Source of the DNA: Alicyclobacillus acidocaldarius subsp. acidocaldarius Tc-4-1
Lineage (GTDB): Bacteria > Bacillota > Bacilli > Alicyclobacillales > Alicyclobacillaceae
DNA: 64,000 nt
Assembly (NCBI RefSeq): GCF_000219875.1
Contig: NC_017167.1
Coordinates: 1,699,572-1,763,571, forward strand
Reading direction: 5' to 3'
The notes beneath the pieces are model-generated. The model saw only the letters and a list, made by a program, of their open reading frames with translations. It was not told the origin of the DNA and ran no database searches. The position numbers were made by a program, and so were the translations under genes. This document shows, piece by piece, positions 764-30,628 of the stretch. The first letter of the stretch is position 1. The number at the start of each line of letters is the position of its first letter.

Positions 764-806
764 GAGAGATCGCCCCCTCCGAAGAGCGATGTCTGCAGGG
801 CAAAAC
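764..806 (-). promoter_or_regulatory. SD-hairpin leader 1 (box + hairpin) of the BRO gene
   Basis: Read on the minus strand: TTTTGCCCTGCA box, then arm ATCGCTC, the loop with SD GGAG, and arm GGGGCGAT (one bulge), ending 6 nt before ATG 763. The SD is therefore inside the hairpin. One of about 17 copies of this architecture. Confidence 0.6.
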
Positions 807-810
807 GGCA

Positions 811-849
811 TAAAAACAGCCCTGCGCCACCTTTCGACGCAAGGCTGTT
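811..849 (-). terminator. Intrinsic terminator of the glycosidase gene
   Basis: On the minus strand, arm AACAGCC(T)TGCG pairs with CGCA(G)GGCTGTT and is followed by a T-run. It ends only a few bases before leader 1. Its 3' arm contains GCAGGGC, complementary to GCCCTGC in the following box, so the two structures could compete. Confidence 0.8.
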
Positions 850-865
850 AATTGGAGTGCATGTG

Positions 866-1939
866 TTACCTCTCTTCCACCACGATCGCAGTCGCCAAGG
901 CTCGCTGCGGAACCGTCAAGTAGCGCCCCTCATACCACAGTCCTGTTGAACTCCCCCCGTCAAGGTTCATCGCGTATGTCAAACCGAGCGCTTTGGCGAT
1001 CTGAGCTTCCTGGTATACATTCGCGTCGTGAATCGTCAAAAACACCAACTGCCCGGACGAATTGAAGCCGACCACCGAGCGCAGTGTCACCGCGTCCACG
1101 ACTTCGTAGTTATCCAGTCCTTCTTTTGCTGGCTCGATGTCGATGCGGCCATTGTTGAGCAACATGGGGCCAGCACCGATGGCGTTTGGATAAGCACTGA
1201 ACGGTACAGTCTTTCCTGTGTCCAGTGAAACTACAGTATCTCCCCACACTGCCCGATCCCCCACATGGACCCGCTGCATGATGGGGGTTTTCGCCTCTCC
1301 CGCGCCAATCTCGATGTCGTAGCCATTGCTTGGAATTGGTGTGATGCCGTCGTGGATCGCAACGATCTTGTTATTCTCCACTTCCGCCACGACAGACGAC
1401 GAATCGCGAGTGCGCGGCCCGTAGAACGGCGTCAACACGCTGACCCGCATAGGGTTGGTGCTCAAGGTGTTGAGAAACCAGGGCCACATGTTGCTGATCG
1501 GATTCGTAGGATCGTAGACATTCAGCGACAGATCCTCAGTCGCACGTAGCATCGTAAGCTGGCCCTGAGTGCCAATGCCGAGAAGCGTGCCCTTCTCGTT
1601 GTACACGAATTGGCCGTTGATTTCCAAAGCCCCGGCCGGGAAGTTGTCGCCACCCGCGTCGAAGAACGTGCCGTTGATCGCGGCGATCGCGTGATTCTGC
1701 TGGGCAATCTGAGCCAACGTAGCCGTGGTGCCAAGCTCGTGATTCGCGATAGCGGGTTGAACCTCAATGTGCGGATCGCGAACATTGATGATGACCTCAT
1801 TCACGGGCTCTCCGTCCACGACAAGAGAACGCACCTGAATGGCTTGGGAGTTGGGCGCGGAGGAGACGCGATGGACTGCGGAATGTGTGGAATGTACGGG
1901 ATGATGTGAAACGAGATCGACCAGTGGCGCAACGAACAC
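866..1939 (-). CDS. Phosphodiester glycosidase (NAGPA domain) family exported protein
   Basis: A GTG start at 1939 is chosen: SD GGGGGAGA lies 7 nt upstream, whereas the longer reading frame (TTG 2026) would translate the leader. Residues ~60-357 match the NAGPA-type phosphodiester glycosidase domain. Landmarks are HEL..TTATLAQIAQQNHAIAAINGTFFD, IGTQGQ, then SVVGFNSSGQLVFLTIHD and YAMNLDGGSSTGLWYEGRYL. The family cleaves phosphodiester-linked sugars at the cell surface. A short hydrophobic N-terminal stretch (VFVAPLVDLV) could be a weak export signal. A hairpin formed by CCCCCA and TGGGGG places the SD in its 3' arm, although the conserved box is not evident here. Confidence 0.75.
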   Translation of the reverse strand: MFVAPLVDLVSHHPVHSTHSAVHRVSSAPNSQAIQVRSLVVDGEPVNEVIINVRDPHIEVQPAIANHELGTTATLAQIAQQNHAIAAINGTFFDAGGDNFPAGALEINGQFVYNEKGTLLGIGTQGQLTMLRATEDLSLNVYDPTNPISNMWPWFLNTLSTNPMRVSVLTPFYGPRTRDSSSVVAEVENNKIVAIHDGITPIPSNGYDIEIGAGEAKTPIMQRVHVGDRAVWGDTVVSLDTGKTVPFSAYPNAIGAGPMLLNNGRIDIEPAKEGLDNYEVVDAVTLRSVVGFNSSGQLVFLTIHDANVYQEAQIAKALGLTYAMNLDGGSSTGLWYEGRYLTVPQRALATAIVVEER

Positions 1940-2031
1940 GAACCATCTCCCCCAACTTTGGCATGCAACTCCTAGTTTACTGGGGGTTCTCAAACTCGCG
2001 CAACACGAGAAAACGAGAGGAGGCAAGAGAC

Positions 2032-2037
2032 ATTATA
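2032..2037 (-). promoter_or_regulatory. -10 promoter hexamer of the glycosidase gene
   Basis: A perfect TATAAT on the minus strand about 90 nt upstream of GTG 1939. No good -35 at 17 nt; TTGATC lies 21 nt upstream. Assigned on the -10 alone. Confidence 0.4.
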
Positions 2038-2165: not shown

Positions 2166-3044
2166 TCAATAGTTGACCCACAGAGCTTCCTGACGCCACC
2201 TCTTCGACGCATGGCACTGTTTTGGCGGCGCGTCGATACACCGCCAATCTCGATACAGCTCGTCCATCAGATCGCAATGATAACCGGAAATCGCAACCTT
2301 GCCCCGAACATTGTGCAAAACCCGCGCAAGTTCCATGTGCTCCTCGTCGCTCATCTCGTAACGATAGGCTCTCGGATCTGTTCGGGTCGCATGGATGTAT
2401 GGCGGGTCGCAGTAAAACAACGTATCAGGACTGTCGTAGGCACGAATCACGTCCATCGCAGGGCGATGTTCGATCTGCACGCGGACCAGACGCGCTGCGA
2501 TCTCGGCCAAATTGGCCGCACTTCCAAGCCAACGGGACACATTGCCTGCCATCCCGCGCTGGCTCGTGTTGCGGCATGCCGCCCAACGCCCCGGTGTAGC
2601 GGTCTGCGCCAGTGCCATGCGAGCCTGTCTTGCTCGGACGTAGAACCGCCTTGCGCGCTCGAGTTCAGTTAGACCACCTGTTGGCTCAACGATGGCCCGG
2701 ACAAACTCTTCTCGACTGAACGGCGTGAGCGCGATCGCCTCAATCAAGGCGTCGCGCTGCTCGCGAAGCACGCGAAAGAAATTGACGACTTCCCCGTCCA
2801 GATCGTTATACGTCTCCACAGGTGAAGGATCCCGATTCAGTAAGACCGCTGCCGAGCCTCCGAACGGCTCGCAATAATGATGCGCTCGCGGCAACAGCGG
2901 CAGGAGCCACGACAAGTGACTGTACTTGCCGCCGTACCAGCCAAACGCGATTCGCTTTCTCCTTGGTTTCTGGCGCGCCGTGCTCACGTGATCGATCATT
3001 AGCGCCGTGAATGGCGGAAGACCTTCTATGAATGACAAAAGCAT
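2166..3044 (-). CDS. D12-class DNA N6-adenine methyltransferase (Dam-like)
   Basis: About 292 residues. Motif I FGWYGGKYSHLSWLLPLLP and the CEPFGGSAAVLLN segment, followed by catalytic motif IV FYCDPPY, are diagnostic of D12-class (Dam/DpnII-type) adenine methyltransferases that transfer a methyl group from SAM to adenine N6. No restriction partner is adjacent. It is paired with the C5 methyltransferase immediately upstream, a phage-like arrangement that protects the element from host restriction. Start is uncertain: ATG 3044 lies in the 3' arm of the leader hairpin, and TTG 3038 is better spaced from the SD GGGGGTG. A second, divergent D12 enzyme is encoded at 25629. Confidence 0.85.
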   Translation of the reverse strand: MLLSFIEGLPPFTALMIDHVSTARQKPRRKRIAFGWYGGKYSHLSWLLPLLPRAHHYCEPFGGSAAVLLNRDPSPVETYNDLDGEVVNFFRVLREQRDALIEAIALTPFSREEFVRAIVEPTGGLTELERARRFYVRARQARMALAQTATPGRWAACRNTSQRGMAGNVSRWLGSAANLAEIAARLVRVQIEHRPAMDVIRAYDSPDTLFYCDPPYIHATRTDPRAYRYEMSDEEHMELARVLHNVRGKVAISGYHCDLMDELYRDWRCIDAPPKQCHASKRWRQEALWVNY

Positions 3045-3076
3045 CACCCCCACTGTGGGGGGCGATGCAGGGCATC
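3041..3076 (-). promoter_or_regulatory. SD-hairpin leader 2 (D12 methyltransferase)
   Basis: Box GATGCCCTGCAT right after the stop of the C5 methyltransferase (3080-3082), then stem GCATC(G)CCCCC / GGGGGTGATGC with loop ACAGT. The SD GGGGGTG is in the 3' arm and the start codon at its foot. Confidence 0.6.
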
Positions 3077-3079
3077 GAA

Positions 3080-4136
3080 CTACTGACCTCGGTGACTTTC
3101 GTGCTCTAACCGAACCAACTCAGCAAAGACCGGAGCAATCTGCGCGGGCACTACGCCATTTCCGAGAGCTTTGAGTCGAGCAACACGGTGACGACGTTTC
3201 GTCGCCGTCCGCGGCGGTTCCCACTCAAACTGCTCCTGCCCAAATCCAGCCGGCCATGGTACACTTCGCAACCGGTCGTTTTCCACATCGATGTCGGTCC
3301 ATCCGATAGGTAATCCCATCAAGCACTCGACCCAGTCCGGATTCAACTGTCCCGGATTATTGGGTTCCATCACTTGAGCTTTTAGGTTGTGTTTCTCGAC
3401 ATCTCGAGCCCACGCTTGAGTTCCATGTGCGGAGGAGCCTTTATACTCGCTAGATTTCGGCGTGCCCCAAAGAACGACGTCATTAAGGTTTGGCGACCAT
3501 CCATCCTTGCGTTTGCGCTTCGCTCTTGCTGAGTCGCAAACGTCACCCGTGCGATAATCACGCGCCTGTGGTGTGGGCCATCGCTGAGCATCCTGAGAAG
3601 ACACGTCCGTGCAGGAAGCATCAAACCTCGTGATGGTAGGCCAGCAAGAATACTCTCTCCCGTCGATGCGGCGCACCCACGTCACATGCCCCATGCACAC
3701 CCCACCGTACATCAAACCCGAGATCGGCCAGGTCATGGAGAACGGCTCCAAAGAACCGTCCAGCATCAGTTGACAGCAGCCCCCGGACATTTTCACCCAC
3801 GAACCATCTGGGCCTAAGCTCGCGAAGCACTCGCCGGAACTCGGGCCAAAGATCCCGTTCGTCCTGAGCGCCCAATCGCTTTCCGGCCAAACTGTGCGGC
3901 TGGCAGGGCCACCCTCCACAAACGATGTCGATCTGGTCAAGTCCCGTCACCTCACGCACCTTCTCCGCAGTCACATCCCGGATGTCCGCGATGATCGGAA
4001 CATCTGGGAAACGCTTCTGAAGCACCTTTTGGCAATAAGGGTCAATCTCACAGAACAATACCGTTCGGATCCCATACCATGAGGCCGCCAAGTCAATGCA
4101 ACCTACTCCGCTGCAAAGACTCACCATGTTCACCAC
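3080..4136 (-). pseudogene. DNA C5-cytosine methyltransferase (Dcm-type), split by a frameshift
   Basis: Two overlapping frames together make a ~350-residue C5 methyltransferase. The first (4136 to 3621, GTG start) carries motif I SLCSGVGCIDLAASWYG, catalytic GGWPCQPHS, ENVRGLL and GAPHRRERVFLLA. The second frame continues with FDASC..WPTPQARDYRTG, the target recognition region, and ALGNGVVPAQ (motif X). The switch is a +1 shift near 3621-3640, where the first frame ends as GAG GTT TGA; dropping one T of GGTTTGATG restores the protein. All catalytic motifs survive, so this may be a recent mutation, a sequencing overcall, or recoding. GTG 4136 is set by the SD AGGAGG 7 nt upstream. Confidence 0.75.
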
Positions 4137-4175
4137 GCATCATCCTCCTGATCGTGCGTGGCTTGCAGGGCAAGT
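4131..4175 (-). promoter_or_regulatory. SD-hairpin leader 3 (C5 methyltransferase)
   Basis: Box ACTTGCCCTGCAA, then a perfect 7-bp stem CCACGCA / TGCGTGG whose loop holds SD AGGAGG and whose 3' arm contains the GTG start codon. A clear case where the helix would hide both signals. Confidence 0.65.
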
Positions 4176-5043: not shown

Positions 5044-5517
5044 TTACATCGTTAACGAAACGGGCTGTTGCCCATCCAGCAAATCCGCAATCCTGCCATC
5101 CACCAACACACCCGCGGGCTTGCCGTGCTGGACTTGATAGGCGATCAGGTCGTCAATGTACTTTGCCTCGTCCATGAACGCCGCAATCATCGTCTCCAAA
5201 TACTGCTTCTGCTTGACCAACGTCTCCAAGTCGGCAAACGGCAACGTCGCATGCGCGAACTTCGCCCCTTGTTGCCGATACGGCACCATCGCCCGAACCT
5301 TCCTGCCTAAGACACGTATCCTGCGCAGCGCTGTGCAGTAATAGTCGTTGTAGAACGCGTTCCATCCCTTCTCGGGCGTGAACACCCTGCGTGCATACGG
5401 CTCCACGAGATCGCGGTTCTGCTTCCCGGTCTTCTTGTCAGTGAAGGTGATGCGATAGGACAACTCCTGCAACATCTCCATTGGATACACCAGCATTTGC
5501 TCTTGTCCTTGCGCCAT
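5044..5517 (-). CDS. Hypothetical protein, 157 aa
   Basis: Start ATG 5517 lies in the 3' arm of its leader hairpin, with SD AAAGGGGTG in the loop. The protein is mixed alpha/beta, begins MAQGQEQMLVYPMEMLQEL and has a basic middle (RRIRVLGRKVRAMVPYRQQG). No signal peptide and no family recognised. It is the first gene of a two-gene unit with the acidic protein downstream and is insulated from the ParB-like gene by a strong terminator. Confidence 0.65.
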   Translation of the reverse strand: MAQGQEQMLVYPMEMLQELSYRITFTDKKTGKQNRDLVEPYARRVFTPEKGWNAFYNDYYCTALRRIRVLGRKVRAMVPYRQQGAKFAHATLPFADLETLVKQKQYLETMIAAFMDEAKYIDDLIAYQVQHGKPAGVLVDGRIADLLDGQQPVSLTM

Positions 5518-5563
5518 CTGGCGATCACACCCCTTTCACCAGATGGGGAGTTGCAGGGCAAAA
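5514..5563 (-). promoter_or_regulatory. SD-hairpin leader 4
   Basis: Box TTTTGCCCTGCAA, then a perfect 8-bp stem CCATCTGG / CCAGATGG. The loop contains SD AAAGGGGTG and the 3' arm contains the ATG. The box overlaps the T-tract of the upstream terminator. Confidence 0.7.
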
Positions 5564-5617: not shown

Positions 5618-6980
5618 CTATTTCAGCAGTCTCGGTCGCTGAATGGCGTGAAGTGCGTCGACAATTTTGGCCAGAAACGCGTTGACCTCCTCAAACCCGT
5701 CCATGCCGTTCGGCCCGACTCGTTGCTGTCGATAGAACTCGTCCACAATCCAGTCCACCTCGCCGCCCGTTTGATGATAGACCGTCCAAATGTCCATAAC
5801 CGCGCGTTCCAGCTTCGTATAGAGCTTGCGACGTTGAGCGCGAGCCTCGTGTTCATCTTCGATCTTTTGCAGCGCGGGTGGCACTTGGAATTGTACGACC
5901 GGCGCGCCTTGGCGCAGCTGCTGGATCTTTTGTTCGTACCTGGCCAGCAACTGCTCAGTCGCTTGATACTTCGATTCGAGTTCGCGTTTTTGTTGCTCGA
6001 TCTCCGCCGCCCGCCGCTTCCACGCCTCGATCTCCTGCTGAACCGAATCCGGCACCACCTCGACGCGCTCCACAGGGCGATTCTTGAGTTCCTCGATCTC
6101 CCGCTCCAAATCGGCAATTCGCTCGCGGTCTTCTTTTCTCCCGCGCTCCCGCAACGCGGTCAGTTCCTGCTCCAGCGTGACCACACGCCAACTCTGAGCC
6201 TGGAGATCCCGGATTCGACGTTCCAACTGCTCGATCTTCTGGCGATCTTCCTCGCGCCCTTGCTCGCGCAACTCTGCGAGTTCCGCCTGCAACCGCGCCG
6301 TTTCCTGGTCGCGACGTTCCGCCTCTTCGAGTCTCCGCCGCAATTCCTTGGTCTCCGCGAACGTGCGATTCGCGATCTCCTCTCCCAACGCTTCATACAA
6401 GGTACGCTGGATTTCCGGGCTTAGGTACGCCAACTGCTCGGCGGCGCTGGTACCAAGTTTGCCGGAGGATACAAGAGTTTGTAACTCCGGAATAAGGTTG
6501 TTAAGTTTAAGCAAGCGTTCCGTGGTTCGTTCGCTTTCTCCCACCACTTCAGCAATATCCTTCAGGGTTTTCAAGTCGCCAATTTGGCGACTTGGTACTT
6601 CGCTACTCGAAGCATTTCGCGTCCCGCCATGCCGTACACCCCAATATTCCGCCAAAAACTTGGCGCGTCGAGCCTTACGCATCGGATCATTGTCTTCGCC
6701 GCGTCGTTCTTCGTTGTCCGCAATCAGAAGGTACTCTGCTTCTTCCGGCGACACATCATAGATCGCCACGGGAACTTGCTCGATCCCCAACTCTCGTGCA
6801 ATGCGATAGCGCTGGTGTCCCGCCAGAATGGTGCCGTCGGGCAGGATCTTCAGAGGATCTCGAATGCCGTGGACTTCGATGCTGCGTTTCAGTTCTTCGT
6901 ACTTCTCACCCGTCAGATCGGCGTAGTAATCCGCGTTCTTCGGGTGCGGCTTCAACCTGTCGATGTGGATCAGGTTCATG
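5618..6980 (-). CDS. ParB/Spo0J-like nuclease-domain protein with long coiled coil (copy 1)
   Basis: A 454-residue protein from ATG 6980 (SD GAGGAGG). Residues 1-95 form the ParB N-terminal domain: HPKNADYYADLTGEKYEELKRSIEVHGIRDPLKI, DGTILAGHQRYRIA and DNEERRGEDNDPMRKARR. A variable linker follows, then HTH residues LKDIAEVVGESERTTERLLKLN. Residues ~190-370 are a Glu/Arg-rich coiled coil, and the rest is a helical C-terminus. Such proteins in phages and plasmids bind DNA and may act in partition or regulation; there is no ParA beside it. The linker residues SRQIGDLK are encoded by a perfect 9-5-9 palindrome (6572-6594). Confidence 0.85.
6572..6594. repeat. 23-nt palindrome inside parB-like copy 1
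   Basis: CAAGTCGCC, loop AATTT, GGCGACTTG. Same geometry and loop as the palindromes at 7512 and 7435, but a different stem. It encodes the hypervariable linker between the ParB domain and the HTH. Confidence 0.8.
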
Positions 6981-7022
6981 GGAATCGCCTCCTCATTTAT
7001 GCGTGGCATGCACGACAAAACA
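6981..7022 (-). promoter_or_regulatory. SD-hairpin leader 5 (ParB-like copy 1)
   Basis: Box TTTTGTCGTGCA, then ATGCCACGC and SD GAGGAGG before ATG 6980. The box is clear; only a weak stem (GCC / GGC) can be drawn, so this is the poorest hairpin of the set. Confidence 0.45.
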
Positions 7023-7534: not shown

Positions 7535-7922
7535 GTCCTTCGCTTCCCGAAACACTCTTTCTCGCCCCACCTCGGCGAATCACCCAGTACTCTGCCAAAA
7601 ACTTCGCCCTTCTGGCCTTTCGCATTGGATCGCGGTCTTCTCCGCGTCGCTCCTCGTTATCAGCAATCAACAAGTACTCCGCCTCTTGCTCCGAAATGTC
7701 GTAAATCACAACAGGCACGCGCTCCAACCCAAGCTCTTTCGCAACGCGCCAGCGCTGGTGACCCGCGATAATCGTCCCATCCGGCAACACCTTCAGCGGA
7801 TCCCGGATCCCGTGGGCCTCAATGCTACGCCTCAGCTCTTCGTACTTCTCACCCGTCAGGTCCGCGTAGTACTCCGCATTCTTCGGGTGGGGCTTCAGAC
7901 GGTGGATGCTCATCTCGCTCAT
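7434..7922 (-). pseudogene. ParB-like protein copy 2, truncated after the ParB domain
   Basis: ATG 7922 (SD GAGGAGG). Residues 1-90 closely match copy 1: MSIHRLKPHPKNAEYYADLTGEKYEELRRSIEAHGIRDPLKV, GHQRWRVAKEL and ADNEERRGEDRDPMRKARRAKFLAEYW. After the linker (SEGPKEQIAPLKS) the sequence does not go on to the HTH. Instead it repeats, out of frame, the block encoding FLAEYWG plus another palindrome, and stops at 7434. The HTH, coiled coil and C-terminus are missing. This is a decayed paralogue with an internal duplication of the FLAEYW-linker unit. It might still encode a free ParB domain, but nothing proves that. Confidence 0.7.
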
Positions 7923-7966
7923 ATCGTTCGACCTCCTCACCTTGAGGGTGGGATGCAGGACAAAGA
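7923..7966 (-). promoter_or_regulatory. SD-hairpin leader 6 (ParB-like copy 2)
   Basis: Box TTTGTCCTGCA, then TCCCACCCTCAAGGTGAGGAGG. The stem CCTC / GAGG or CACC / GGTG places SD GGTGAGGAGG in the helix or its edge. Confidence 0.5.
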
Positions 7967-8383: not shown

Positions 8384-8392
8384 ATCGAACAT

Positions 8393-8443
8393 GCCTCCTC
8401 ACCGGGTTTTGTTCTACGTATTAAGGCTGTTTGCGGGACAAAA
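8393..8443 (-). promoter_or_regulatory. SD-hairpin leader 7
   Basis: Box TTTTGTCCCGCAA followed by a longer spacer (AACAGCCTTAATACGTAG, then AACAAAACCCGG) and SD GTGAGGAGG. Box and SD are conserved; pairing is weak. Confidence 0.4.
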
Positions 8444-8555: not shown

Positions 8556-8569
8556 ACGTGTACCTCCCT

Positions 8570-8614
8570 CAAAAAAGTCACTTTCACATAATCGGGACTT
8601 GCACGACAAAAAAA
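8570..8614 (-). promoter_or_regulatory. SD-hairpin leader 8, fused to a terminator
   Basis: The T-run of the terminator at 8615-8641 becomes the TTTT of box TTTTGTCGTGCAA. A CAAGTC / GACTT pairing precedes SD AGGGAGG. No room exists for a separate sigma-A promoter. Confidence 0.45.
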
Positions 8615-10953: not shown

Positions 10954-11646
10954 TTAGTCAATCGGGTCGCTGGAGTACATGTTGTGTTGGTCGGTGGAAG
11001 TGCCGGATGAATCGAACGGGTTCGATCCGTTGTTGTTCCCGTTTTGCCCAATCGGCGTCCCATCTGGCTGGAAACCGTAAAGATTGTCACCTGCTGCCAG
11101 GTATACATTCCCAGTCGCCTTATCAATGACCGGTGCGCTGTTCGAGACGCCGGTGACGGGTTGCACCCATTTGACGGTGGGTGCGAACGCGCCTGTCTGA
11201 GGATCCTGTTTCCATCCGCTCGGGCTCACGTCCATCGCGATGAGGTAACCGGGCGCGGTCGGGTTGTCCGATGCTCCCTCGTTGTTCGCAGGTACCGCAA
11301 AGTACATTGTGCCGTTGTACTCCACCGGTGTGGAGTTTCCGTATCCGAGATGAAGCGTAATTGTTTGGCCGTCGTGATAGTAGGTGACCGTAGGCAGGAA
11401 GGTTGTAAGTCCCCAACTGTACGGGTCGTAGATCCCGTTCTCGTGCGTGCGCCACACCGAGTCGCCGAACTGCGCCGCCGCGTTGACGCTCGCAATCGCC
11501 AGGGCTTGCCCGTTACCGACATAGGTCAGTAGCGCACTCGCCTTCGGTGCGGGCCACGACACAAACGCACCTGCCGTCGTCAGCACCACTGCAACCGCCA
11601 GCGCCTTCTTCGCCTTGGTGTTCATGCGCACCTTGAACTTGCGCAT
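10954..11646 (-). CDS. Exported PQQ-like protein, N-terminal part with signal peptide
   Basis: ATG 11646 with SD GGAGGTGA. Signal peptide: MRKFKVRMNTKAKKALAV, then a hydrophobic core (AVVLTTAGAFVSW) and a likely cleavage after APKASA. The mature part contains propeller-like strands (YLIAMDVSPSGWKQD, VYLAAGDNLYGFQPDGTPIG) and ends in an Asn/Gly/Ser stretch at TAA. The downstream frame continues in phase. A large propeller protein outside the cell suggests binding or adhesion. If the stop is real, only this 230-residue fragment is secreted. Confidence 0.65.
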   Translation of the reverse strand: MRKFKVRMNTKAKKALAVAVVLTTAGAFVSWPAPKASALLTYVGNGQALAIASVNAAAQFGDSVWRTHENGIYDPYSWGLTTFLPTVTYYHDGQTITLHLGYGNSTPVEYNGTMYFAVPANNEGASDNPTAPGYLIAMDVSPSGWKQDPQTGAFAPTVKWVQPVTGVSNSAPVIDKATGNVYLAAGDNLYGFQPDGTPIGQNGNNNGSNPFDSSGTSTDQHNMYSSDPID

Positions 11647-18659: not shown

Positions 18660-18661
18660 AT

Positions 18662-20020: not shown

Positions 20021-20313
20021 TATTCTAATGCTGGCGGCAATTGACGAATGACCTTTAGCGTCTCCACCGCCACACGCACTGCTCGTTTCACCAAGTCCAC
20101 AATGTACCGAGGATCTTGAGCCGTCTCACGAGCCCAGGCGTTCGGATCATTCACGATCCCGCTTGCTCGATCTCGCTTGATTTGATACTGCTCCACAATC
20201 CATTCAATCGGCGACCGTCCATTCACCTGATAGTGGAACGCTTCTTCCGGAATTCCACGAAGCGTTATCCACTCGTTGACAACCAAGTCTCTCTTGTCCC
20301 TAGCAAACCTCAT
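20020..20313 (-). CDS. C-terminal fragment of the type ISP restriction-modification enzyme (frameshifted)
   Basis: 97 residues matching the extreme C-terminus of type ISP enzymes: LVVNEWITLRGIPEEAFHYQ, NGRSPIEWIVEQYQIKRDRA, SGIVNDPNAWARE, DPRYIVDLVKRAVRVAVETL. It begins in another frame 14 nt before the stop of the large gene. The expected junction YRVK-KMRF needs five A residues where GTAAAAGATG has four. It was originally the end of the 1,460-residue protein. Losing it removes part of the target-recognition region. Confidence 0.7.
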   Translation of the reverse strand: MRFARDKRDLVVNEWITLRGIPEEAFHYQVNGRSPIEWIVEQYQIKRDRASGIVNDPNAWARETAQDPRYIVDLVKRAVRVAVETLKVIRQLPPALE

Positions 20314-23300: not shown

Positions 23301-24679
23301 TTGACAAAAGTAATGAGCCGTTGTAGAGGCGGCTGAATGTCTTCATCCATGAGCGCTCTGGACAAAGCATACGCCCTGACCAAATCTGGAACTTGAGGAG
23401 CGTCTGTTTCCTGCACCCAATCAACGAACATCTGTTGTACTCTTCGCTCGCTAAAGAACATTACGCGGACGCAATAATTTGCCAAATACCCCTCTTCAAC
23501 GCCTCTACGAAAGCTATATCTGAAAAATTCGGGTCCGAACGTTTCAAGATTGTCCATGCCATAAGTCCGCAGTCCTTCACGTTCAAGTCGATTTCGATGG
23601 GCTTCGGTAAAGAGGCGTGGCGTAGCTGTCAAATACAATCGACGATGTGCATGAATCCGATCATCGTCATGGAACATCAAAAAGTCAGATGGATCTTCCT
23701 CTTCTTCATACGCCACGCCTGTCGTCCGGTGCGCTTCATCCGCAATGGCCACACGAAACTCAGGCAAACCTTGCTGTTGGGCATCTGCTACGACGTGGAG
23801 GGATTGATAAGTGCTTACCACAACGATGATTGCGTCATCTACGGGTTGAGCGGCACGAACCAACTCTTCATGATTCGTAGTTGGTGGGATAATCAGCGAA
23901 ATGTCTCCTGTGTCCTCGTCGCGCCCCACCCCTCGGTCGGAAGTTACGGCAACAAAACGAAGCTGCACCGTCGCGTCGCGCTTCCAAGCTCGTATCGTCT
24001 GATTGACTAAGGCGATTGAAGGTGCGCAGAAGAGAACAAGGTCTCCTGGTTGTGCGAAACGTTCAACAGTTCGAAGCGCCACTAACGTCTTTCCCGTCCC
24101 TGGCGGCATAATGCACTTTCCACGATCGTTTGCTTCCCAGCCAGAGAGAATGGCTGCAACGGCTTCCTCTTGGTATGGACGCAGACTCACCGGCACATGG
24201 CGCGTCATTGCTTCAGACGCTTGCCAGGTGAACTGTTCCCAATCTATATCGGCAGTTTCAAAATCCTCCCCAGTCCAAACAGCGATACCACGTTCTTGAC
24301 AGCGGGCTTCCGCCGTGCGGGTAACGCCACCAACTGCAACTACTAAGAACTTCGTGAACGAAAACCGCGGTGACGTTGCGGACGCAACAAACGTCGAAAG
24401 TTCACGCCAGTCCACCGGGTCACGATGGTCCTTGGATTGGATTGCCCACAAATGGTGCTCAGTGTCTTCAGCCACCAAATCGATACCTTCGTCTTGCTGA
24501 GAACGCTCTGGTTGCGTGTCCATAATCCAATCTCGATATGTCTTAACCCACACAAACCGGGCACCTGGGTAATGCCCGTCGCGCAGGAACGCAAGCAAAA
24601 ATCGTTCGAATAAGCGCCCGCGCTCTTGTGGAGACGACGCCTCATTCTGCAAGTTTTCGTATTGCTCCCAAAACCCCAT
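20300..24679 (-). CDS. Single-polypeptide type ISP restriction-modification enzyme
   Basis: About 1,459 residues (ATG 24679; GTG 24688 also possible). Order: Mrr-like nuclease at ~20-150 (DEGIDLVAEDTEHHLWAIQS); SF2 translocase with Walker A PPGTGKTLVAL, DEAH box ADEAHRTTG, YLTATPRL and QAIGRVVRKP; helical coupler; gamma-class adenine methyltransferase with FAGTGTFPALML and catalytic GNPPW; C-terminal target recognition domain. The translocase drives along DNA and cleaves when two enzymes meet, and methylation marks self. The last ~90 residues are lost to a one-base deletion (see the fragment at 20020). This is one of the largest genes in the window and a plausible defence cargo. Confidence 0.9.
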   Translation of the reverse strand: MGFWEQYENLQNEASSPQERGRLFERFLLAFLRDGHYPGARFVWVKTYRDWIMDTQPERSQQDEGIDLVAEDTEHHLWAIQSKDHRDPVDWRELSTFVASATSPRFSFTKFLVVAVGGVTRTAEARCQERGIAVWTGEDFETADIDWEQFTWQASEAMTRHVPVSLRPYQEEAVAAILSGWEANDRGKCIMPPGTGKTLVALRTVERFAQPGDLVLFCAPSIALVNQTIRAWKRDATVQLRFVAVTSDRGVGRDEDTGDISLIIPPTTNHEELVRAAQPVDDAIIVVVSTYQSLHVVADAQQQGLPEFRVAIADEAHRTTGVAYEEEEDPSDFLMFHDDDRIHAHRRLYLTATPRLFTEAHRNRLEREGLRTYGMDNLETFGPEFFRYSFRRGVEEGYLANYCVRVMFFSERRVQQMFVDWVQETDAPQVPDLVRAYALSRALMDEDIQPPLQRLITFVNSRAKSQAIVDTWNKLEKRFGMSRPVFVAHMDGTMSMRERAKLLRCLETLTDREGNSVDHVLITNARVLTEGIDVPDLDAVVFLEPRKSRVDVIQAIGRVVRKPPHRPNKVGTILVPIVLNVDRLEPNAPISEEQIEALLLPQEENFRTLVQIINALRAIDTAVDVYIRELLSPHEGSNREPSNTVQIRFDLGLPQELEEQIRKTITTRLVAPANNRSYFGVFAATVEEVARRLRTQLDTILGALPIEHYQEAQAAFQNYVTALREVLHPNISEEDAKDFLVQHWIMAPVFSSLFPGDDLTETPVARSFEQVTEGLFAPFLDRERHVLEEFYVSVRIRAQGIRTPEERQDFLRLLFEMLFKAVFPKAASRLGIVYTPVELVNFLLKSVDVVLQKHFGKTTASSGVTIIDPFAGTGTFPALMLQRWDKETILRKLQAREFWANDVQLFAYYMLLTNLRWTIREMTGEDPGWNLPVLWVDSFQLQEEHGSWSTQFFADDYTELMRTQRDASITVVVGNPPWRSRQRDENDANQNLQYERLDERIRSTFAAETSSRNRNSLYDAYIRAIRWAMDRVGNQGVVAFVTNAGWIDGNAMDGMRKELANECAAIYLINLRGNARTQGELRRREGDNVFSQGSRAAVCLVVLVKDDSHVGPAEIFYHDIGDYLSREEKLAKVKAFGDVQGVPWTRITPNEAGDWIHQRSDEFVSLMPLGGEQAESEHRIFNIRSRGVATSRDAWVYNFSHETVANNMQRMIAVYNSQVRRGINEQLNDPSQISWSRGLRRDATRGAIHRFRPDAIRIALYRPFSKRWLYFDRAFNDMIYQQLRLFPRPDAENKVIILQAPGDNRNFTCLVTDELPDLHVVGTTQCFPLYVYDGEDGDVEVQVALDLIAPKDYAITDETLRAFQEQYGDTSITKEDIFYYVYGVLHASDYRERFASDLRRELPRIPFASDFWAFSQAGRKLAELHIGYEKVDPFPLEESISSNAPEDPWERYRVKDEVC

Positions 24680-24775
24680 CTTGATCACCCGTTCAACACC
24701 TTGGATTCCAAGCAAATCTTGTGCTTTCTTCGATATTCGAATGCGAACTTCCTTCTTGATTGGCTAACCTCCGCC

Positions 24776-24835
24776 TCATCCGCGACGCCGGAGTACAAAT
24801 GCACCACGCTTTGCTGCAAACACCAGTGTGTCCAT
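24776..24835 (-). pseudogene. Truncated copy of the sigma-factor gene start
   Basis: ATG 24835 opens 19 codons MDTLVFAAKRGAFVLRRRG. The first nine residues match the sigma factor at 19981 (MDTLVLAAK). The copy is cut off upstream of the restriction enzyme gene. The leader is preserved with an 8-bp stem. Confidence 0.6.
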
Positions 24836-24878
24836 GAGAATCGCCCCTCCGACATAGAGGGGCGGCGTAAGACAAAAT
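24836..24878 (-). promoter_or_regulatory. SD-hairpin leader 13 (truncated sigma copy)
   Basis: Box variant TTTTGTCTTACG, stem CGCCCCTC / GAGGGGCG with loop TATGTCG, SD GGAGGGG in the 3' arm. Confidence 0.6.
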
Positions 24879-25587: not shown

Positions 25588-25628
25588 AACCTTGCCCTCC
25601 ATCCCCCACTGGGATGGAGGTGCACCTT
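25588..25628 (+). promoter_or_regulatory. SD-hairpin leader 14, the only plus-strand copy
   Basis: Box CCTTGCCCTCCA, then a perfect 10-bp stem CCTCCATCCC / GGGATGGAGG with loop CCACT. SD GGAGGTG is the end of the 3' arm and ATG 25629 follows after 9 nt. The leader follows the gene orientation, which argues for an mRNA role. Confidence 0.6.
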
Positions 25629-26468
25629 ATGTCCATCCTGCGTCCCTATCTCCTTTGGCCCGGCGGAAAGTCCCGGCTTGTCCCACTCCTGCGCAAACTT
25701 CTCCCGCCCGGTCGTCGCCTCATCGAACCGTTCGTCGGTGCCGGCGCGGTGTTCCTGAACTTAGATTATCCCGAGCACCTGCTCGGCGACGTCAACCGCG
25801 ACCTGATCCTCGCGCACCAGATGCTCCAAGCGCACGGCGAAGCGTTCATTGAGGCCTGCCGTGAGCTGTTCGTGCCCGAGAACAACACTCCCGAGCGGTA
25901 CTACGAACTGCGCGATGAGTTCAACAGCACGGCGGATCCGTGGCACAGCACGGCGGATCCGTGGCGCAGAGCGGCGCTCTTCGTCTATCTCAACCGTCAC
26001 AGTATCCACGGCTTGATCCGATACAATCGACACGGTCGTTTCAACGCACCGTTCGGGTATCGGAAGAGAATCTACTTCCCTGAAGCGGAGATGCGCCACT
26101 TCGTCGAGCGGTCGAAGCGAGCGGCATTCGTCCACGCCGACTTTCGCGACCTGATGAAGCAAGCGCGCCCGAATGATGTCGTCTACTGCGATCCGCCCTA
26201 CGTACCGCTCTCCGACACGTCGAACTTCGTGGAGTATTCGCCAGGCGGCTTTTCGTGGTGCGATCACGAGGTGTTGGCCGACTACGCTCGGGCACTTGCA
26301 GAGCGCGGCGTCACCGTTGTGATCTCGAATCATCGAACGCCTGCGGTCGAGTCCTTGTATCGGGGCGCGGAAATCCACGTCGTCGAGGTACCAAGAAATA
26401 TCGGGAGTCAGCATCGGCAGACGGCGCGTGTGGTCGAAGAGTTGATCGCGGTCTTTCGAGCATTGTGA
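25629..26468 (+). CDS. D12-class DNA N6-adenine methyltransferase (second)
   Basis: 280 residues from ATG 25629. Motif I LLWPGGKSRLVPLLRKLLP, then IEPFVGAGAVFLN, motif IV VVYCDPPYVPLS. The same enzyme class as the gene at 2166, but clearly divergent, so probably different specificity. A 15-bp tandem duplication (GCACGGCGGATCCGTG-like) encodes STADPWHSTADPW near residue 105, an expansion inside the target-recognition region. No restriction enzyme is adjacent on the same strand. It may be an orphan protective methylase. Confidence 0.85.
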   Translation: MSILRPYLLWPGGKSRLVPLLRKLLPPGRRLIEPFVGAGAVFLNLDYPEHLLGDVNRDLILAHQMLQAHGEAFIEACRELFVPENNTPERYYELRDEFNSTADPWHSTADPWRRAALFVYLNRHSIHGLIRYNRHGRFNAPFGYRKRIYFPEAEMRHFVERSKRAAFVHADFRDLMKQARPNDVVYCDPPYVPLSDTSNFVEYSPGGFSWCDHEVLADYARALAERGVTVVISNHRTPAVESLYRGAEIHVVEVPRNIGSQHRQTARVVEELIAVFRAL

Positions 26469-26584: not shown

Positions 26585-26615
26585 GAATCGTTTGATTTAG
26601 AACAACGCCTGTCCG

Positions 26616-28043
26616 TCACGGCCTCGCCGAGGAAACTCGTTCGATCTCCTCGATGATTTGTTGTGCCGTCTTCGTGATCCGTTCGAGGCTCGCACGCAGT
26701 TTGCGCTTGTCACCGTCCGACCAAGCCCATACATAACCGACCGAATAGTCACTCGTGTCGAACCCAAACGCCGACGCCACGCAGTACGCGACCGCCTCCG
26801 CCTCGATCTCCATCTGCTGACGCTCGGGCGATGGTCCGCCTCCCTCAACAACCGTGAACCGATCGTCGAAATCGGCATGCATCAGCGCATGGGCGTATTC
26901 GTGGATCAGCGTCTTCGCCTCCTGATCCGGCGACAACCCGTCGGACAGGCTGATCTTTCGGTCCTCTAGGTGGTAGATACCGTTCGCGCCATGCAGTCGC
27001 TGTCGCGATTCGTAAGAAACCGGGATCCCCTTGCTGCGAATCACACTCATCAGCCGATCCCGGAGCTCCACATGCCGATCGCCTTCGATTCGCTCATCCA
27101 GCACCGGAATCGGTTCGCCATCTGTCTGTGAGATGTCGAACACCGTCACTGTCTTGAACCCAACGAGCTTTTGCTTAAGGACAGGTTCACCATTCTCGTC
27201 CAACACCGGATTGCCGTGTTCGTCCTCTTCCGGCACCTTCTTGATCAGCGGTGCCAGGATGCTGATGCCCCGCTCGCCGCGCATGACGTGGCGCCCGAAC
27301 TCCTGCCACTTCTTGTAGCCCATGACGCACGACGCGTTCGGGCGTTGAGCGTAAATCAGCATGACATTGTGAAAGCTGTACCGCGGCACGCGCGCCGCAA
27401 ACTCCAGGTAGCGCTTGAATTGCTCGCTGTCCTGGAACGTGTCCAACAACGCGTTGAGCCGCTCGAACGCCTCCTGCACCTTCGGGTTCCGGCTGTGCGT
27501 CACAAACGCGCGCTGCTCCGTCGCCTCGCCCTGAGCGTCGTCCGGATTGTCCGCCGTCGCAGGCCCACCGAGTGGAACTTCGTCCTCCGTCTCCACCGAA
27601 GCAGGCGGTGCGCCCGTCTGCGCCCACTGCGCGGCACTGGACTCATTGAGCCCCAGCGCTCGCGCCCGCTGATACAGTTCGCGATTGGGACCGTGATACG
27701 CTTCGTTGACATACTCGGCCGCGAGATGCTTGGGCACCCGCGCTGCGGCCAGCCGAAGCTCATCAGCAGAATACGACTCCAATGGCCTTGCTTGTGGCGC
27801 AATCGCCTCCAGCGCCCCATGCGTGCTGATGATGGGTGCCTGTTCGTCCGGAATGTCCGGAGACACCAACGGGCGCTTCAAAAAACGTTGGACACGCTCG
27901 TCCGACATGACGTTCCAGCCCTTCGGCACACGTCCCGTCCAACCGACCTGACGCAGCAACCACTTGGCGCACACCGGTCCTGCGCCGCGACGAATGCTCG
28001 GTTCCGCCCGCAGTGTGCGCGTGCAACGAACGCAGTTAGTCAT
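26616..28043 (-). CDS. ArdC-like antirestriction protein with N-terminal zinc ribbon
   Basis: 475 residues from ATG 28043. Residues 1-35: CVRCTRTLR...RGAGPVCAKW, a DUF6011-type zinc ribbon. Residues ~215-330: ArdC N-terminal ssDNA-binding domain (RVPRYSFHNVMLIYAQRPNA, GYKKWQEFGRHVMRGERGIS). Residues ~390-470: zinc metallopeptidase-like domain with HEYAHALMHAD and a downstream Glu (EIEAEAVAYCVA). ArdC proteins protect transferred plasmid DNA from host restriction, so this supports a conjugative or phage-like element. The segment after the ribbon (SDERVQRFLKRP) is also found in the shorter paralogue upstream. Confidence 0.85.
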   Translation of the reverse strand: MTNCVRCTRTLRAEPSIRRGAGPVCAKWLLRQVGWTGRVPKGWNVMSDERVQRFLKRPLVSPDIPDEQAPIISTHGALEAIAPQARPLESYSADELRLAAARVPKHLAAEYVNEAYHGPNRELYQRARALGLNESSAAQWAQTGAPPASVETEDEVPLGGPATADNPDDAQGEATEQRAFVTHSRNPKVQEAFERLNALLDTFQDSEQFKRYLEFAARVPRYSFHNVMLIYAQRPNASCVMGYKKWQEFGRHVMRGERGISILAPLIKKVPEEDEHGNPVLDENGEPVLKQKLVGFKTVTVFDISQTDGEPIPVLDERIEGDRHVELRDRLMSVIRSKGIPVSYESRQRLHGANGIYHLEDRKISLSDGLSPDQEAKTLIHEYAHALMHADFDDRFTVVEGGGPSPERQQMEIEAEAVAYCVASAFGFDTSDYSVGYVWAWSDGDKRKLRASLERITKTAQQIIEEIERVSSARP

Positions 28044-28500
28044 GGAAAAACCCCCTTCGACGAGAAAGTGCTCTCGTGAGAAAGGGGCTTGCAGGGCAAA
28101 ATTTGCCCAAAAGTCGTGTCTCCAGTTCCTCGCCTCTATTGCTGAAGCCGTACTCGCGAGTAACGTGAGGCAACCCGGACAGCAGGAATTCCCGATGCCG
28201 AGCAGGAACATCCGCATCCATCATCATTCGCTTGGCCGCCGTGGCGGTAACACGCGCAAACTGCGGCGTGGCAACCACCGCATTGGAAGACGGACTGTGA
28301 GTCAACGTCGGCGCATCAACTCGATCTCCCGCATTAAAGAGACGCTGCACCCGCTCGTCCAATGACGCGGAACATCCCCGTGGCATCCGCCCCTCCCCCC
28401 CGACTTGTCGCAACAACAACTTCGCGCACGCAGGCCCAGCACCGCGGCGAATGCTGGACGGTGAACGAAGATGGCGACCGCAACGCACACACGTGGACAT
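28036..28500 (-). CDS. DUF6011-type zinc-ribbon protein overlapping the ArdC gene
   Basis: 154 residues from ATG 28500 (SD GGGAGGGG). N-terminal CVRCGRHLRSPSSIRRGAGPAC closely resembles the ribbon of ArdC, followed by a similar LDERVQRLFN motif, a paralogue of the ArdC N-terminus. Its frame runs through the whole ArdC leader (residues FCPASPFLTRALSRRRGFFHD) and stops 8 nt inside ArdC. Ribosomes finishing this gene must melt the ArdC hairpin, which suggests translational coupling. Confidence 0.65.
   Translation of the reverse strand: MSTCVRCGRHLRSPSSIRRGAGPACAKLLLRQVGGEGRMPRGCSASLDERVQRLFNAGDRVDAPTLTHSPSSNAVVATPQFARVTATAAKRMMMDADVPARHREFLLSGLPHVTREYGFSNRGEELETRLLGKFCPASPFLTRALSRRRGFFHD
28044..28102 (-). 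promoter_or_regulatory. SD-hairpin leader 15 (ArdC)
   Basis: Box TTTTGCCCTGCAA, outer stem CCCCTT / AAGGGG enclosing an inner GAGA / TCTC hairpin; SD AAGGGGG in the outer 3' arm. The most elaborate copy. Confidence 0.65.
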
Positions 28501-28524
28501 AAAAAATCCCCTCCCACGAGTCGG

Positions 28525-29400
28525 TCATCGATTCATCAACTCCTGCAACACCGTCAGCTTCCACCGAATCGCGTACTTCGTCGTCGATACGTTCTTATCG
28601 GGACGGAACACCTCTACCGGTAACAGTTTCGCATACGGCTTTCCGGCGTCCGTCAGCACCCACGCCCGCGCCGCCTCGTCCCATCGTTGCAATCCGGCTT
28701 CGGCGAGCAACCGATTCATGCGTTGCGCCGACACGGGCGGCGACATCCGCTTGCCGAGTTCCGTCGGCGAAAACGTCTCGTCCAGGTCGTCGTCGCGAAT
28801 GTGCCGCTTGTACTCGCTGAGATCGACACCGAACTCGCGCTCCGTGTGCGACAACGCCAAGAGCGTTGCGGTGCCGTCGGACAACCCAATTAGTTTTCCA
28901 AGCTTCTTCTTGTAATTGACAGTCGAGTAAACCTCACGCCACGAAATGCGCCTGACCGCTCGAGCCACGATGTGCGGTGCTTCAGCGCGCGCCCCCTCTT
29001 CGACGTTCAGCAAGTACGTGCGCACCGTCTTGGCAACCTGGCTGTCCCGAAGAAGCATACCGATGCGGAGAATGGCGCGGCGGGGAATCAGCGTTAAGGT
29101 TCGGATTTTCGACGACAAACCAAAACTTGCCTGGTCCTCAAAGGACCTAGCAAAATCTTTCAACTCCAAACCACTGAGCACCTTCAAACCGTCCGATATC
29201 AACTCGTCTCGATGGTCCTTAATGAGTGACTTGATCGCCTCAACGCCCACCTCGTAGTAATCAGCAACCATCTCAACCGTCGCATGCAGATCATCCGGCA
29301 ACAACACCAGCGCCTTGACCTTCTCCAGCACATCCGTCCTGTCCGCCAGTCGATCCCGCAGTTCGCGAACCTCCAACAGCAGATCCGTGTTCACGTTCAT
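28525..29400 (-). CDS. Phage-type regulatory protein, antirepressor-like
   Basis: 292 residues (ATG 29400; a GTG 6 nt later has better spacing to GGAGG). N-terminal coiled coil (LLLEVRELRDRLADRTDVLE), then a conserved block DLHATVEMVADYYEVGVEAI, KSLIKDHRDELISDGLKVLS and RAILRIGMLLRDSQVAKTVR. This is a DNA-binding/antirepressor-like module frequent in Bacillota phages. The C-terminal ~90 residues (FSPTELGKRMSPPVSAQRMN...YAKLLPVEVF) look like a winged helix. Upstream of the two zinc-ribbon genes; a regulator is likely, target unknown. Confidence 0.6.
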   Translation of the reverse strand: MNVNTDLLLEVRELRDRLADRTDVLEKVKALVLLPDDLHATVEMVADYYEVGVEAIKSLIKDHRDELISDGLKVLSGLELKDFARSFEDQASFGLSSKIRTLTLIPRRAILRIGMLLRDSQVAKTVRTYLLNVEEGARAEAPHIVARAVRRISWREVYSTVNYKKKLGKLIGLSDGTATLLALSHTEREFGVDLSEYKRHIRDDDLDETFSPTELGKRMSPPVSAQRMNRLLAEAGLQRWDEAARAWVLTDAGKPYAKLLPVEVFRPDKNVSTTKYAIRWKLTVLQELMNR

Positions 29401-29452
29401 CGCCTCCACGACGAAAGGGTCTTCGTCTATGGGGCGTTTGTAGGGCAAAAAC
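29401..29452 (-). promoter_or_regulatory. SD-hairpin leader 16
   Basis: Box TTTTTGCCCTACAA, then ACGCCCC, stem GACGAA / TTCGTC with loop GACCC(T), and SD GGAGG right before the start. Confidence 0.5.
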
Positions 29453-29622
29453 GTCATCTGGACCACACGACTGTAACCCGCGTTTCCGAGCCTTGGTCAA
29501 TCTTGAGCTCCTTCGGATGTCGGAACGTCTGGAGGCGCTGTTGAGTGCCCGTCAAACACGGTACCGTGCCATAAAATGAACACCGCCGCGCCCTTGCCTT
29601 CCTTGGAAGCGACGCGGCGAAT

Positions 29623-30198
29623 TCAGCCTTCTTGCGTACCTTCAAATCCCGAATCCTCTGTGCATGGCTCAAAACCTTCCGGCAACCGAAAACCGCCGCG
29701 AAGCAATGCGATCCACGCACCATCCGTCATCGTGCGTTTTTCGCGAAAGACAACCACACGTGTGTTCGACCAAATTGCTAACACATTTGCAAAAACCCAC
29801 ATTGGATTGTGTAACCACAAGAAAATCGACAACCCGTTTGCCAGCAGTCCTCCACGGTACACCCACAGCTTCTGCTTAATGGGAATATCAAAGCAATACG
29901 TTCCTGGGCTTGTACTTCCGCCAGTCGGAATCCATCGGACCTCAAAGCCTTTGATTCGAAATACCAACGGTCCAGAGCCAATGACCATCCGCTTTGTTGG
30001 AACACCAAATATTCGGCGGAATACGTAGTGCCCCAGCTCATGAACAAAAATTAGAATGTGAGATATAAATGGTAACGATACTGCAACAACAATCCAACCT
30101 TGCTGTGTGTGAGGCAACAGATCCGATATCAAACAAATTAGACCTGCTAACAATCCCTTCAGTCCACTGCTCATATCCTCTGCTTCCTCAGCCACCAA
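29623..30198 (-). CDS. M50-family site-2-protease-like membrane metalloprotease
   Basis: About 191 residues with several TM helices. The motif IFVHELGHYVFRRIFG gives the HExxH zinc site of M50 proteases, followed by an M50-like GSGPLVF segment. The second metal ligand region could be the DG in TDGAW, but this is uncertain. It is a minimal M50 protein without PDZ domain. M50 enzymes cleave membrane regulators such as anti-sigma factors. The element encodes a sigma factor and a small membrane protein, so a link is conceivable but unproven. Confidence 0.7.
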   Translation of the reverse strand: MVAEEAEDMSSGLKGLLAGLICLISDLLPHTQQGWIVVAVSLPFISHILIFVHELGHYVFRRIFGVPTKRMVIGSGPLVFRIKGFEVRWIPTGGSTSPGTYCFDIPIKQKLWVYRGGLLANGLSIFLWLHNPMWVFANVLAIWSNTRVVVFREKRTMTDGAWIALLRGGFRLPEGFEPCTEDSGFEGTQEG

Positions 30199-30243
30199 TC
30201 TTCCCAGACGACCACATGCGGAAAGATCACCACAGCCAACATC

Positions 30244-30585
30244 TCAAGTCGGTTGCCCTCCTTTTTTGCGAAACGCAAATCTCCCAGCGTACGAACTGGC
30301 CGCCCATGCCCACAACATGTACCCGATCACAAGGACTTGGATCGGCACGAACACCGAAAACGCCAACCCCAGGCATACGGCTGCCGTGTACCCTGCACCC
30401 ATCAACGCGCCGAACGGGTCGCTGACCGATGGATCGTTGCGGCGTAGCGACAGATACCAGAGATACGACAAAACCAGATAACCCATCCCGGCCAGCACAC
30501 GCCATGCGACTGCCACATGGAAGTAGTGCGAACCGACGATCACGGCACCAATGACGACGTACCAAGCGATCAGTTCGAGCACCAT
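30244..30585 (-). CDS. Four-TM hypothetical membrane protein
   Basis: 114 residues from ATG 30585, with helices LIAWYVVIGAVIVGSHYF, AWRVLAGMGYLVLSYLWYL, AGYTAAVCLGLAFSVFVPI and VLVIGYMLWAWAASSY and a basic C-terminus. SD GGGAGGG sits in the leader hairpin. The frame is open upstream into the small basic protein gene, without a stop codon between. Confidence 0.6.
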   Translation of the reverse strand: MVLELIAWYVVIGAVIVGSHYFHVAVAWRVLAGMGYLVLSYLWYLSLRRNDPSVSDPFGALMGAGYTAAVCLGLAFSVFVPIQVLVIGYMLWAWAASSYAGRFAFRKKGGQPT

Positions 30586-30628
30586 CAAGCAATCCCTCCC
30601 TACAAGGAGGGCGTTGCAGGGCAAAAAA
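30586..30628 (-). promoter_or_regulatory. SD-hairpin leader 17
   Basis: Box TTTTGCCCTGCAA joined to the T-run of the preceding terminator; stem CCCTCC / GGAGGG with loop TTGTAG; SD GGGAGGG is the 3' arm. Confidence 0.7.

Follow-up and report, generated by a model that had tools for sequence, protein, structure and literature searches.

A compact family of leaders precedes genes of one group of conjugative elements, which occur in thermoacidophilic bacteria of the Alicyclobacillaceae. In Alicyclobacillus acidocaldarius subsp. acidocaldarius Tc-4-1, 17 copies lie in the first 32 kb of the window, by which we mean the whole 64,000-nucleotide stretch analyzed here (1699572-1763571 of a single contig of 3,124,048 bases), and this region is part of an element that continues leftward and, judged by its genes, looks conjugative. 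The leader combines a 12-bp box with, on average, a hairpin that involves the Shine-Dalgarno (SD) sequence. Our preferred reading, held with somewhat less than even confidence, is that conjugative elements of the Alicyclobacillaceae use it as a portable gene header, with a DNA box that would be joined to a hairpin serving to silence read-through RNA. Some of the genes on conjugative elements, anti-restriction genes among them, are risky and are thought to require brief expression, and how this is achieved in Gram-positive elements without sigmaA promoters at such genes is the question addressed here.

The box and its linkage to gene starts

All 17 leader positions listed in an earlier note on this DNA could be located, and the exact box TTTTGYCSTGCA is present in seven of them. 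Three boxes differ from it by one change (7965, 8443, and 29450), two by two changes (4175 and 17768), and four by three changes (3077, 20019, 24877, and, on the plus strand, 25590), and only a partial box with five changes is found at 11688. When at most one mismatch is allowed, the window contains 10 boxes, which lie without exception on the minus strand and within the first 31 kb; the mean in shuffled sequences is 1.52, and none of 100 shuffles reached 10. Genome-wide, the exact sequence occurs 16 times, always on the minus strand, with seven copies in the window element, eight in a second, related element on the same chromosome (about 2.27-2.37 Mb), and one elsewhere, and the pattern read backwards as a genome-wide control gave 4 and 1 occurrences. 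The copy outside both elements (L006, chromosome positions 2138698-2138709) has no obvious leader behind it and is probably due to chance.

A set of 109 leaders was cut greedily at 60-70% identity to 78 copies for the upstream side and 50 for the downstream side, and 85 were used in the stem analyses. The consensus of the 78 copies is the 12-bp TTTTGYCNTGCA, in which five positions are at least 95% identical and the five strongest carry 1.6-1.9 bits. Position 5 is C or T (no A, 1% G), and position 9 is G or A in 83% of copies. The box is followed by a C-rich stretch and then by the SD sequence. Boxes scoring at least 12 have a start codon with an SD sequence 20-75 nt downstream in 113 of 217 cases, compared with 851 of 4000 random positions, which were drawn from plus strands only, the antisense strand in both own elements. 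For scores of at least 18 the count rises to 37 of 42, and the median distance from box to start is 42 nt. By these counts the leader is, as the note had it, a real and repeated feature directly 5' of open reading frames (ORFs) that is tied to start codons. Sixteen of the 17 window boxes lie on the minus strand together with their genes, and one lies on the plus strand with its gene. This plus-strand copy indeed follows the orientation of its gene, although its box is weak (covariance model E 8.5); a similar layout was read by eye in the related elements B1 and B2. Box scores are strand-biased in most other elements (37 vs 5 in F3, 28 vs 9 in B1), with little bias in H8 (10 vs 8) and none in B2 (15 vs 16). 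The leaders of the window are listed here, with hairpin z values as defined in the following section.

761..805, minus strand: exact box (805-794), hairpin with SD, ATG; z -2.2
3042..3077, minus strand: degenerate box CGATGCCCTGCA (3 changes), hairpin CCCCC/GGGGG; z -1.6; same leader at L058:8022
4131..4175, minus strand: box with 2 changes, stem CCACGCA/TGCGTGG holding the GTG start; z -3.8
5515..5563, minus strand: exact box, stem CCATCTGG/CCAGATGG holding the ATG; z -3.0; predicted upstream-abutting stem of -24 kcal/mol
6977..7020, minus strand: exact box, hairpin unsupported; z -0.3
7920..7965, minus strand: box with 1 change, weak hairpin; z -0.3
8385..8443, minus strand: box with 1 change, weak hairpin; z -0.2
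8560..8611, minus strand: exact box, hairpin unsupported, terminator-like stem directly upstream (-24 kcal/mol); z +0.25
11646..11688, minus strand: partial box TTTTGTCTGC, strong hairpin, ATG; z -2.8
15458..15504, minus strand: exact box, strong hairpin, before the truncated sigma-like gene; z -3.4
17721..17768, minus strand: box with 2 changes, hairpin with a T run behind it, GTG; z -1.7
19979..20019, minus strand: leader of the sigma factor gene, box with 3 changes, hairpin CGCCCC/GGGGCG; z -2.0
24833..24877, minus strand: box TTTTGTCTTACG (3 changes), stem CGCCCCTC/GAGGGGCG; z -2.8
25590..25631, plus strand: box CCTTGCCCTCCA weak, with 3 changes, stem CCTCC/GGAGG, flanked by two divergent genes; E 8.5
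28041..28101, minus strand: exact box before the ArdC-like gene, long hairpin that includes an inner stem; z -3.5
29392..29450, minus strand: box with 1 change, long hairpin; z -5.4
30583..30626, minus strand: exact box, hairpin, terminator-like stem directly upstream (-31 kcal/mol); z -1.5

The gene behind the leader at 8560-8611 was seen by eye to have no ATG, GTG, or TTG at the place where its relative in L058 starts.

Hairpin strength and covariation

To express hairpin strength as a z value, a 40-nt segment beginning at the last box base was compared with 200 dinucleotide shuffles in 16 window leaders (all but 25590), three of which are registered off by 2 nt. In 12 of these 16 leaders z is -1.5 or lower, whereas four (7020, 7965, 8443, and 8611) have no hairpin beyond the shuffles (z -0.28 to +0.25), so the claim of a hairpin in every copy was too strong, even though it stands for most. 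Both own elements together contribute 29 leaders, chosen by box and start, with a mean z of -1.56. Among the 85 leaders, hairpins of at least -8 kcal/mol strength start at the box in 63, compared with 30 at the control position, and 37 of these 63 have five or more T within the 7 nt behind the hairpin, where 22.4 are expected from shuffled tails. These T runs suggest that the hairpins may terminate read-through transcription besides hiding the SD sequence.

The stems had been described as unrelated between copies but complementary. Exchanging stem halves between leaders, a control for the pairing to be expected between C-rich stretches and SD sequences in general, revealed that this is true on average. 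In the own elements (25 leaders, also picked by box and start, whether or not they carry a hairpin), cognate halves reach -9.3 kcal/mol compared with -7.6 kcal/mol for swapped halves, a difference attained by 1 of 5000 permutations, and for all 50 non-redundant leaders none of 5000 permutations attained the cognate mean. The effect per leader is modest: 16 of 25 own-element leaders and 37 of all 50 pair more strongly with their cognate half than in the median swap, and the cognate half is the best partner in just 4 of 25 and 3 of 50, respectively. Covariation holds because the stems pair better with their own than with swapped halves. In addition, an alignment of 67 distinct hits, which was fitted to the covariance model and is thereby biased towards it, has 86.1% paired cells compared with 78.2% after shuffling and a covariation score of 0.428 compared with 0.280, which none of 500 shuffles reached. 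Slid registers score lower, although register -2 still pairs 83% of cells (score 0.186), and pairs changed on both sides number 6 compared with 4.7, a count reached by 43 of 500 shuffles. The inner stem of the 29450 leader has partly different letters in the second element, with the pairing kept.

The region upstream of the box

Conservation stops sharply at the 5' edge of the box: among the 78 copies, information content stays at or below 0.15 bits throughout positions -60 to -1, and the aligned leaders contain no -35/-10 pair at a fixed spacing upstream of the box. In 22 of 85 leaders a predicted stem of -18 kcal/mol or stronger ends between -10 and +2 relative to the start of the box, compared with none of 85 at -40 to -28, and the own two elements alone give 8 of 29 compared with none of 29. 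At thresholds of -15 and -12 kcal/mol the counts are 29 vs 5 and 36 vs 14, the control position being 30 nt further up. The box's own TTTT can act as the T run of such an upstream terminator. As a strong stem ending within 10 nt of the box leaves little room for a promoter that would transcribe it, the box is expected to be transcribed mainly by read-through in the roughly one quarter of leaders where a stem abuts it. The strengths of the upstream stem and the downstream hairpin are anticorrelated (Spearman -0.28, p 0.0096, n=85), as if either predicted structure were enough for insulation. The sharp edge of conservation together with the upstream stems favours a DNA site.

Distribution of the leaders and apparent exchange of their genes

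Relatives were gathered with covariance models that include the stem (R1 built from eight hand-picked leaders, R2 from 74 hits). At E<=0.01, matches were found in 11 of 41 genomes of the family, representing 7 of 16 genera, and in 4 of 15 genomes of the own genus; seven of the matching genomes have 7-22 matches each and four have one or two. Order-wide, at 0.003, 10 of 59 genomes match, two of them as single hits in another family. In a phylum sample of 398 genomes at 0.001, none of the 397 others matches beside the own genome, in a search that scored at most 15 candidates per genome and recovered 13 matches in the own genome compared with 22 in the family search, so that single weak copies elsewhere could be missed. 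This patchy distribution is the pattern of a mobile element, and box clusters are confined to genomes of one bacterial family. The leader is also carried by the 87,298-base plasmid NC_013207.1 of A. acidocaldarius DSM 446, and a related contig belongs to A. sendaiensis. In a viral collection the box-plus-stem pattern has no match, and a relaxed box pattern occurs in 42 viral contigs, once each. At the Rfam gathering score the only match in the window is a tRNA, and with E up to 1 the region 15300-30800 gives only that tRNA and one sub-threshold snoRNA, which agrees with the earlier statement that the layout corresponds to no described RNA family. No published description of the leader was found in the open-licence literature.

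DNA homology between elements ends within 20 nt of a box in 27 of 430 cases, where 2.0 are expected, and among box-preceded genes 14 of 27 have a homology break no more than 80 nt ahead of the start, compared with 22 of 186 others; the same elements are reused in several pairs, which are therefore not independent. From these comparisons the box-preceded genes look like exchangeable modules. Besides, the plasmid and one integrated element carry the same leaders even though their VirB4 proteins are just 28-30% like the others, which suggests that gene and header move together between different conjugation machineries. It is possible, if on balance doubtful, that the leader is a plug-in header: cargo genes would carry their own 45-nt unit, in which a DNA box recognised by a sigma-like factor of the element is combined with a read-through-muting hairpin of free sequence, and would shuffle between distant conjugative elements, whether integrated or plasmid-borne, join the regulon at once, and stay insulated from neighbouring genes.

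A candidate regulator

A small protein encoded by the elements carries, at its C-terminus, a helix-turn-helix (HTH) like that of sigma region 4 and LuxR. Its gene adjoins the VirB4 gene in elements E1, E2, B1, and K5, lies 2-8 kb from it in two G023 elements, and is more than 25 kb away in the G029 elements. In a search of 20 hand-picked genomes, the family (E<1e-18) is found in all seven genomes with box clusters and in one of 13 others (G036), and G023 has one hit in or beside each of its three box clusters; no hit was obtained in G027, a genome with two box hits. The best NCBIfam match of three of four members is the 'positive control sigma-like factor' PRK06930, although the four members score 54.7, 54.5, 43.2, and 30 bits, below the cut-off of 136 bits. 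Xpf is given as the positive control factor of PBSX in the excerpted part of PMC10141391. The window contains a truncated copy of the sigma-like gene and, additionally, a sigma factor gene with close relatives in three other elements (B1, B2, and P2).

14915..15502, minus strand: sigma-like HTH gene, truncated before the HTH, with intact leader and longer relatives in other elements
19352..19996, minus strand: gene for a SigH/ECF-like sigma factor with regions 2 and 4, preceded by a leader of its own

A short ORF behind the 24877 leader (24693-24929, minus strand) begins with residues that resemble, by eye, the start of the sigma gene at 19996, and is a probable remnant paralogue of it. Two other window genes were considered as recognisers and set aside, namely a 751-aa protein, thought of as RNA polymerase-like, which has merely weak beta-propeller-type and SusE matches, and a conserved small gene at 13674-14063, which we take to resemble gamma-glutamylcyclotransferase (Pfam and PHROGs gave no hit).

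Proposed mechanism and alternative explanations

We propose that a factor encoded by the element would recognise the 12-bp box in DNA and start or gate transcription at, or just inside, the 5' arm of the hairpin, the Xpf-like sigma-like HTH protein being the likeliest candidate; the target of this factor, the start site, and the direction of control are what we infer. In most copies the predicted hairpin begins at the last box base or at most 4 nt later and holds the SD sequence in its 3' arm. RNA reading through from an upstream gene would contain the whole hairpin and would remain untranslated or be terminated there, whereas RNA started at the box would lack part of the 5' arm and could be translated, and in some copies the upstream terminator would do the insulating. 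The purpose would probably be that each gene is switched on by the regulator of the element and not by transcripts leaking from its neighbours.

Several observations weigh against this reading. VirB4 and several other genes are likewise present in all nine elements compared, so that co-occurrence alone does not single out the sigma-like factor. In the 400 nt upstream of nine family members, six have no box above 7.4 and three have a strong one (P2, B2, and the truncated window copy), which places only part of the family within the regulon. A lone 12-bp element with no second block would be unusual for a sigma factor, and the candidate shows a region-4-like HTH only. The start at the box is presumptive, and the terminators and hairpins are predictions; since the models used for gathering contain the stem, hairpin fractions among the relatives are inflated. 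At a threshold of -10 kcal/mol the contrast in upstream stems is weak (41 of 85 vs 28 of 85, p 0.06), and the anticorrelation of upstream stem and hairpin loses significance when the analysis is confined to the own elements (rho -0.17, p 0.38, n=29). SigmaA-like sites (at least 9/12) occur within 150 nt upstream in 12 of 73 leaders compared with 224 of 3000 random stretches, about twice the background, so that in a minority of leaders transcription from an upstream promoter may yield RNA that includes the box.

These sites are also consistent with the proposal of the earlier note, by which a trans-acting protein or RNA would recognise the box in the transcript, open or close the SD hairpin, and thereby control translation element-wide. 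The locked positions of box and hairpin and the covarying stems agree with this proposal, and the Y and R degeneracy at box positions 5 and 9 would suit pairing with G and U. Its recogniser step, however, finds no support and is partly contradicted by the lack of upstream conservation and by the strong terminator-like stems, which in about a quarter of leaders reach to within 10 nt of the box. Pairing with 16S rRNA was rejected, the best complement in the 16S locus scoring 7.5 compared with a median of 17 for true boxes, and the candidate regulator has an HTH of the DNA-binding type. We therefore regard an RNA site as unlikely; a DNA box with a read-through lock fits better than an RNA regulon, a preference that leans on predicted terminators and an unproven regulator. 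A stoperator-like arrangement, in which an element repressor on the asymmetric box halts initiation or elongation and the hairpin serves as a second lock, seems rather improbable. It would account for asymmetric 12-bp sites oriented with their genes, and the L5-type stoperators bound by the mycobacteriophage L5 repressor are likewise asymmetric, of similar length, oriented with transcription, and spread over the element (PMC9283540, in excerpt). Their sequence differs from that of the box, the same excerpt does not mention an SD hairpin for them, whereas here the box stands a median of 42 nt before the start, and no repressor candidate turned up, with no systematic search made.

A single-strand function in the recipient, with box and hairpin acting as a promoter or priming site on single-stranded DNA for early expression of establishment genes, would explain why 16 of 17 window copies lie on one strand and why most other elements are biased as well, and ArdC and orphan methyltransferases are genes of the leading-region type in the portion of PMC11541004 that treats them. 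Frpo, as described there, shares some features with the leader and differs in others. Strand bias is absent in B2 and small in H8, and the one reversed window gene has a reversed copy. The stem positions carry no sequences that could recreate a -35 and a -10, as in Frpo/ssi, and the stems of about 7-10 bp are much shorter than those of Frpo. As this function would also leave the SD linkage unexplained, we consider it improbable, even more so than a stoperator. Finally, the box might be a recombination site for gene exchange at cassette junctions, with regulation being secondary, as the excess of homology ends near boxes and of breaks upstream of box-preceded genes would suggest. A conserved box carried along with its gene would nevertheless give an equal break point with no recombination at the box, the element pairs are not independent, the SD hairpin stays unexplained, and no recombinase is linked to the box; we consider a recombination site very improbable.

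Comparison with known systems

The T4 late promoter is TATAAATA, and the box described here is unlike it; host, element type, and regulator differ as well. The likeness to T4 late-gene hairpins lies in a ribosome-binding site (RBS) held in a hairpin of read-through RNA, which is predicted here, and the logic would be shared, with a presumed start here and with the header repeated before many genes per element. RBS-sequestering hairpins are described for I-TevI, segB, soc, and e of T4 and for mobE of Aeh1, and the late promoter of I-TevI is positioned so that RNA started at it can be translated but read-through RNA cannot (PMC2988022, in excerpt). Closest in setting is EGeRS1 of the pLS20-family plasmids, which precedes ardC as well as further establishment operons; EGeRS1-B, in which no constitutive sigmaA promoter was found, blocks read-through, and the mechanism of EGeRS1 is called unknown in the excerpted part of PMC8708921. 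Here the 28101 leader likewise precedes an ArdC-like gene, but EGeRS1 is described in that excerpt as 400-600 bp long and sequence-conserved with several inverted repeats, whereas the leader has about 45 nt with 12 conserved bases and free stems; no long conserved region of the EGeRS1 kind was found in the 1-60 nt upstream of the box. In cluster K mycobacteriophages, SAS/ESAS is a short asymmetric repeat at translation starts, about half of the copies having an inverted repeat, with a function given as unknown (PMC3203893, in excerpt). According to the same passages it comprises the 13-bp GGGATAGGAGCCC with 17-bp consensus inverted repeats upstream, while the leader has a different box and free stems downstream.

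By analogy, the leader would assemble known principles, the T4 lock and an EGeRS1-like setting, from different parts. If our reading is true, whole elements outside the phages would be built on the T4 read-through lock as a design rule. A marker for this element family is provided by the covariance model, and the compact repeated header together with a candidate regulator makes the question of control directly testable.

The element and its neighbouring genes

Left of the window, the element encodes a VirB4-type ATPase, a HerA/TrwB-like ATPase, TrbL/VirB6, and ParA-like and actin-like proteins, together with a T2SSE match and a T2SSF-like match slightly under the cut-off. The part inside the window encodes ParB-like proteins, DNA methyltransferases including orphan ones, and the sigma factor gene mentioned above, as well as the following two genes.

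20300..24715, minus strand: type ISP-like restriction-modification enzyme, 1471 aa, domains in a single chain, within the leader array and near the anti-restriction gene
26616..28217, minus strand: ArdC-like anti-restriction gene, served by the 28101 leader

No relaxase was identified among the genes of the window element, and the genome gives no match to the TraG/VirD4-type coupling protein PF02534 at E<=0.001. A viral origin of the element was rejected, as phage records show no near match to window positions 1-25000. The tRNA gene (18587-18659, minus strand) sits within the mobile element. In the transfer region left of the window (loci L007 and L008), VirB4/TrbL-type genes are mixed with Tad-pilus-like T2SSE and ParA-like genes, accompanied by sub-threshold T2SSF and SAF matches and by signalling genes with EAL and HD domains.

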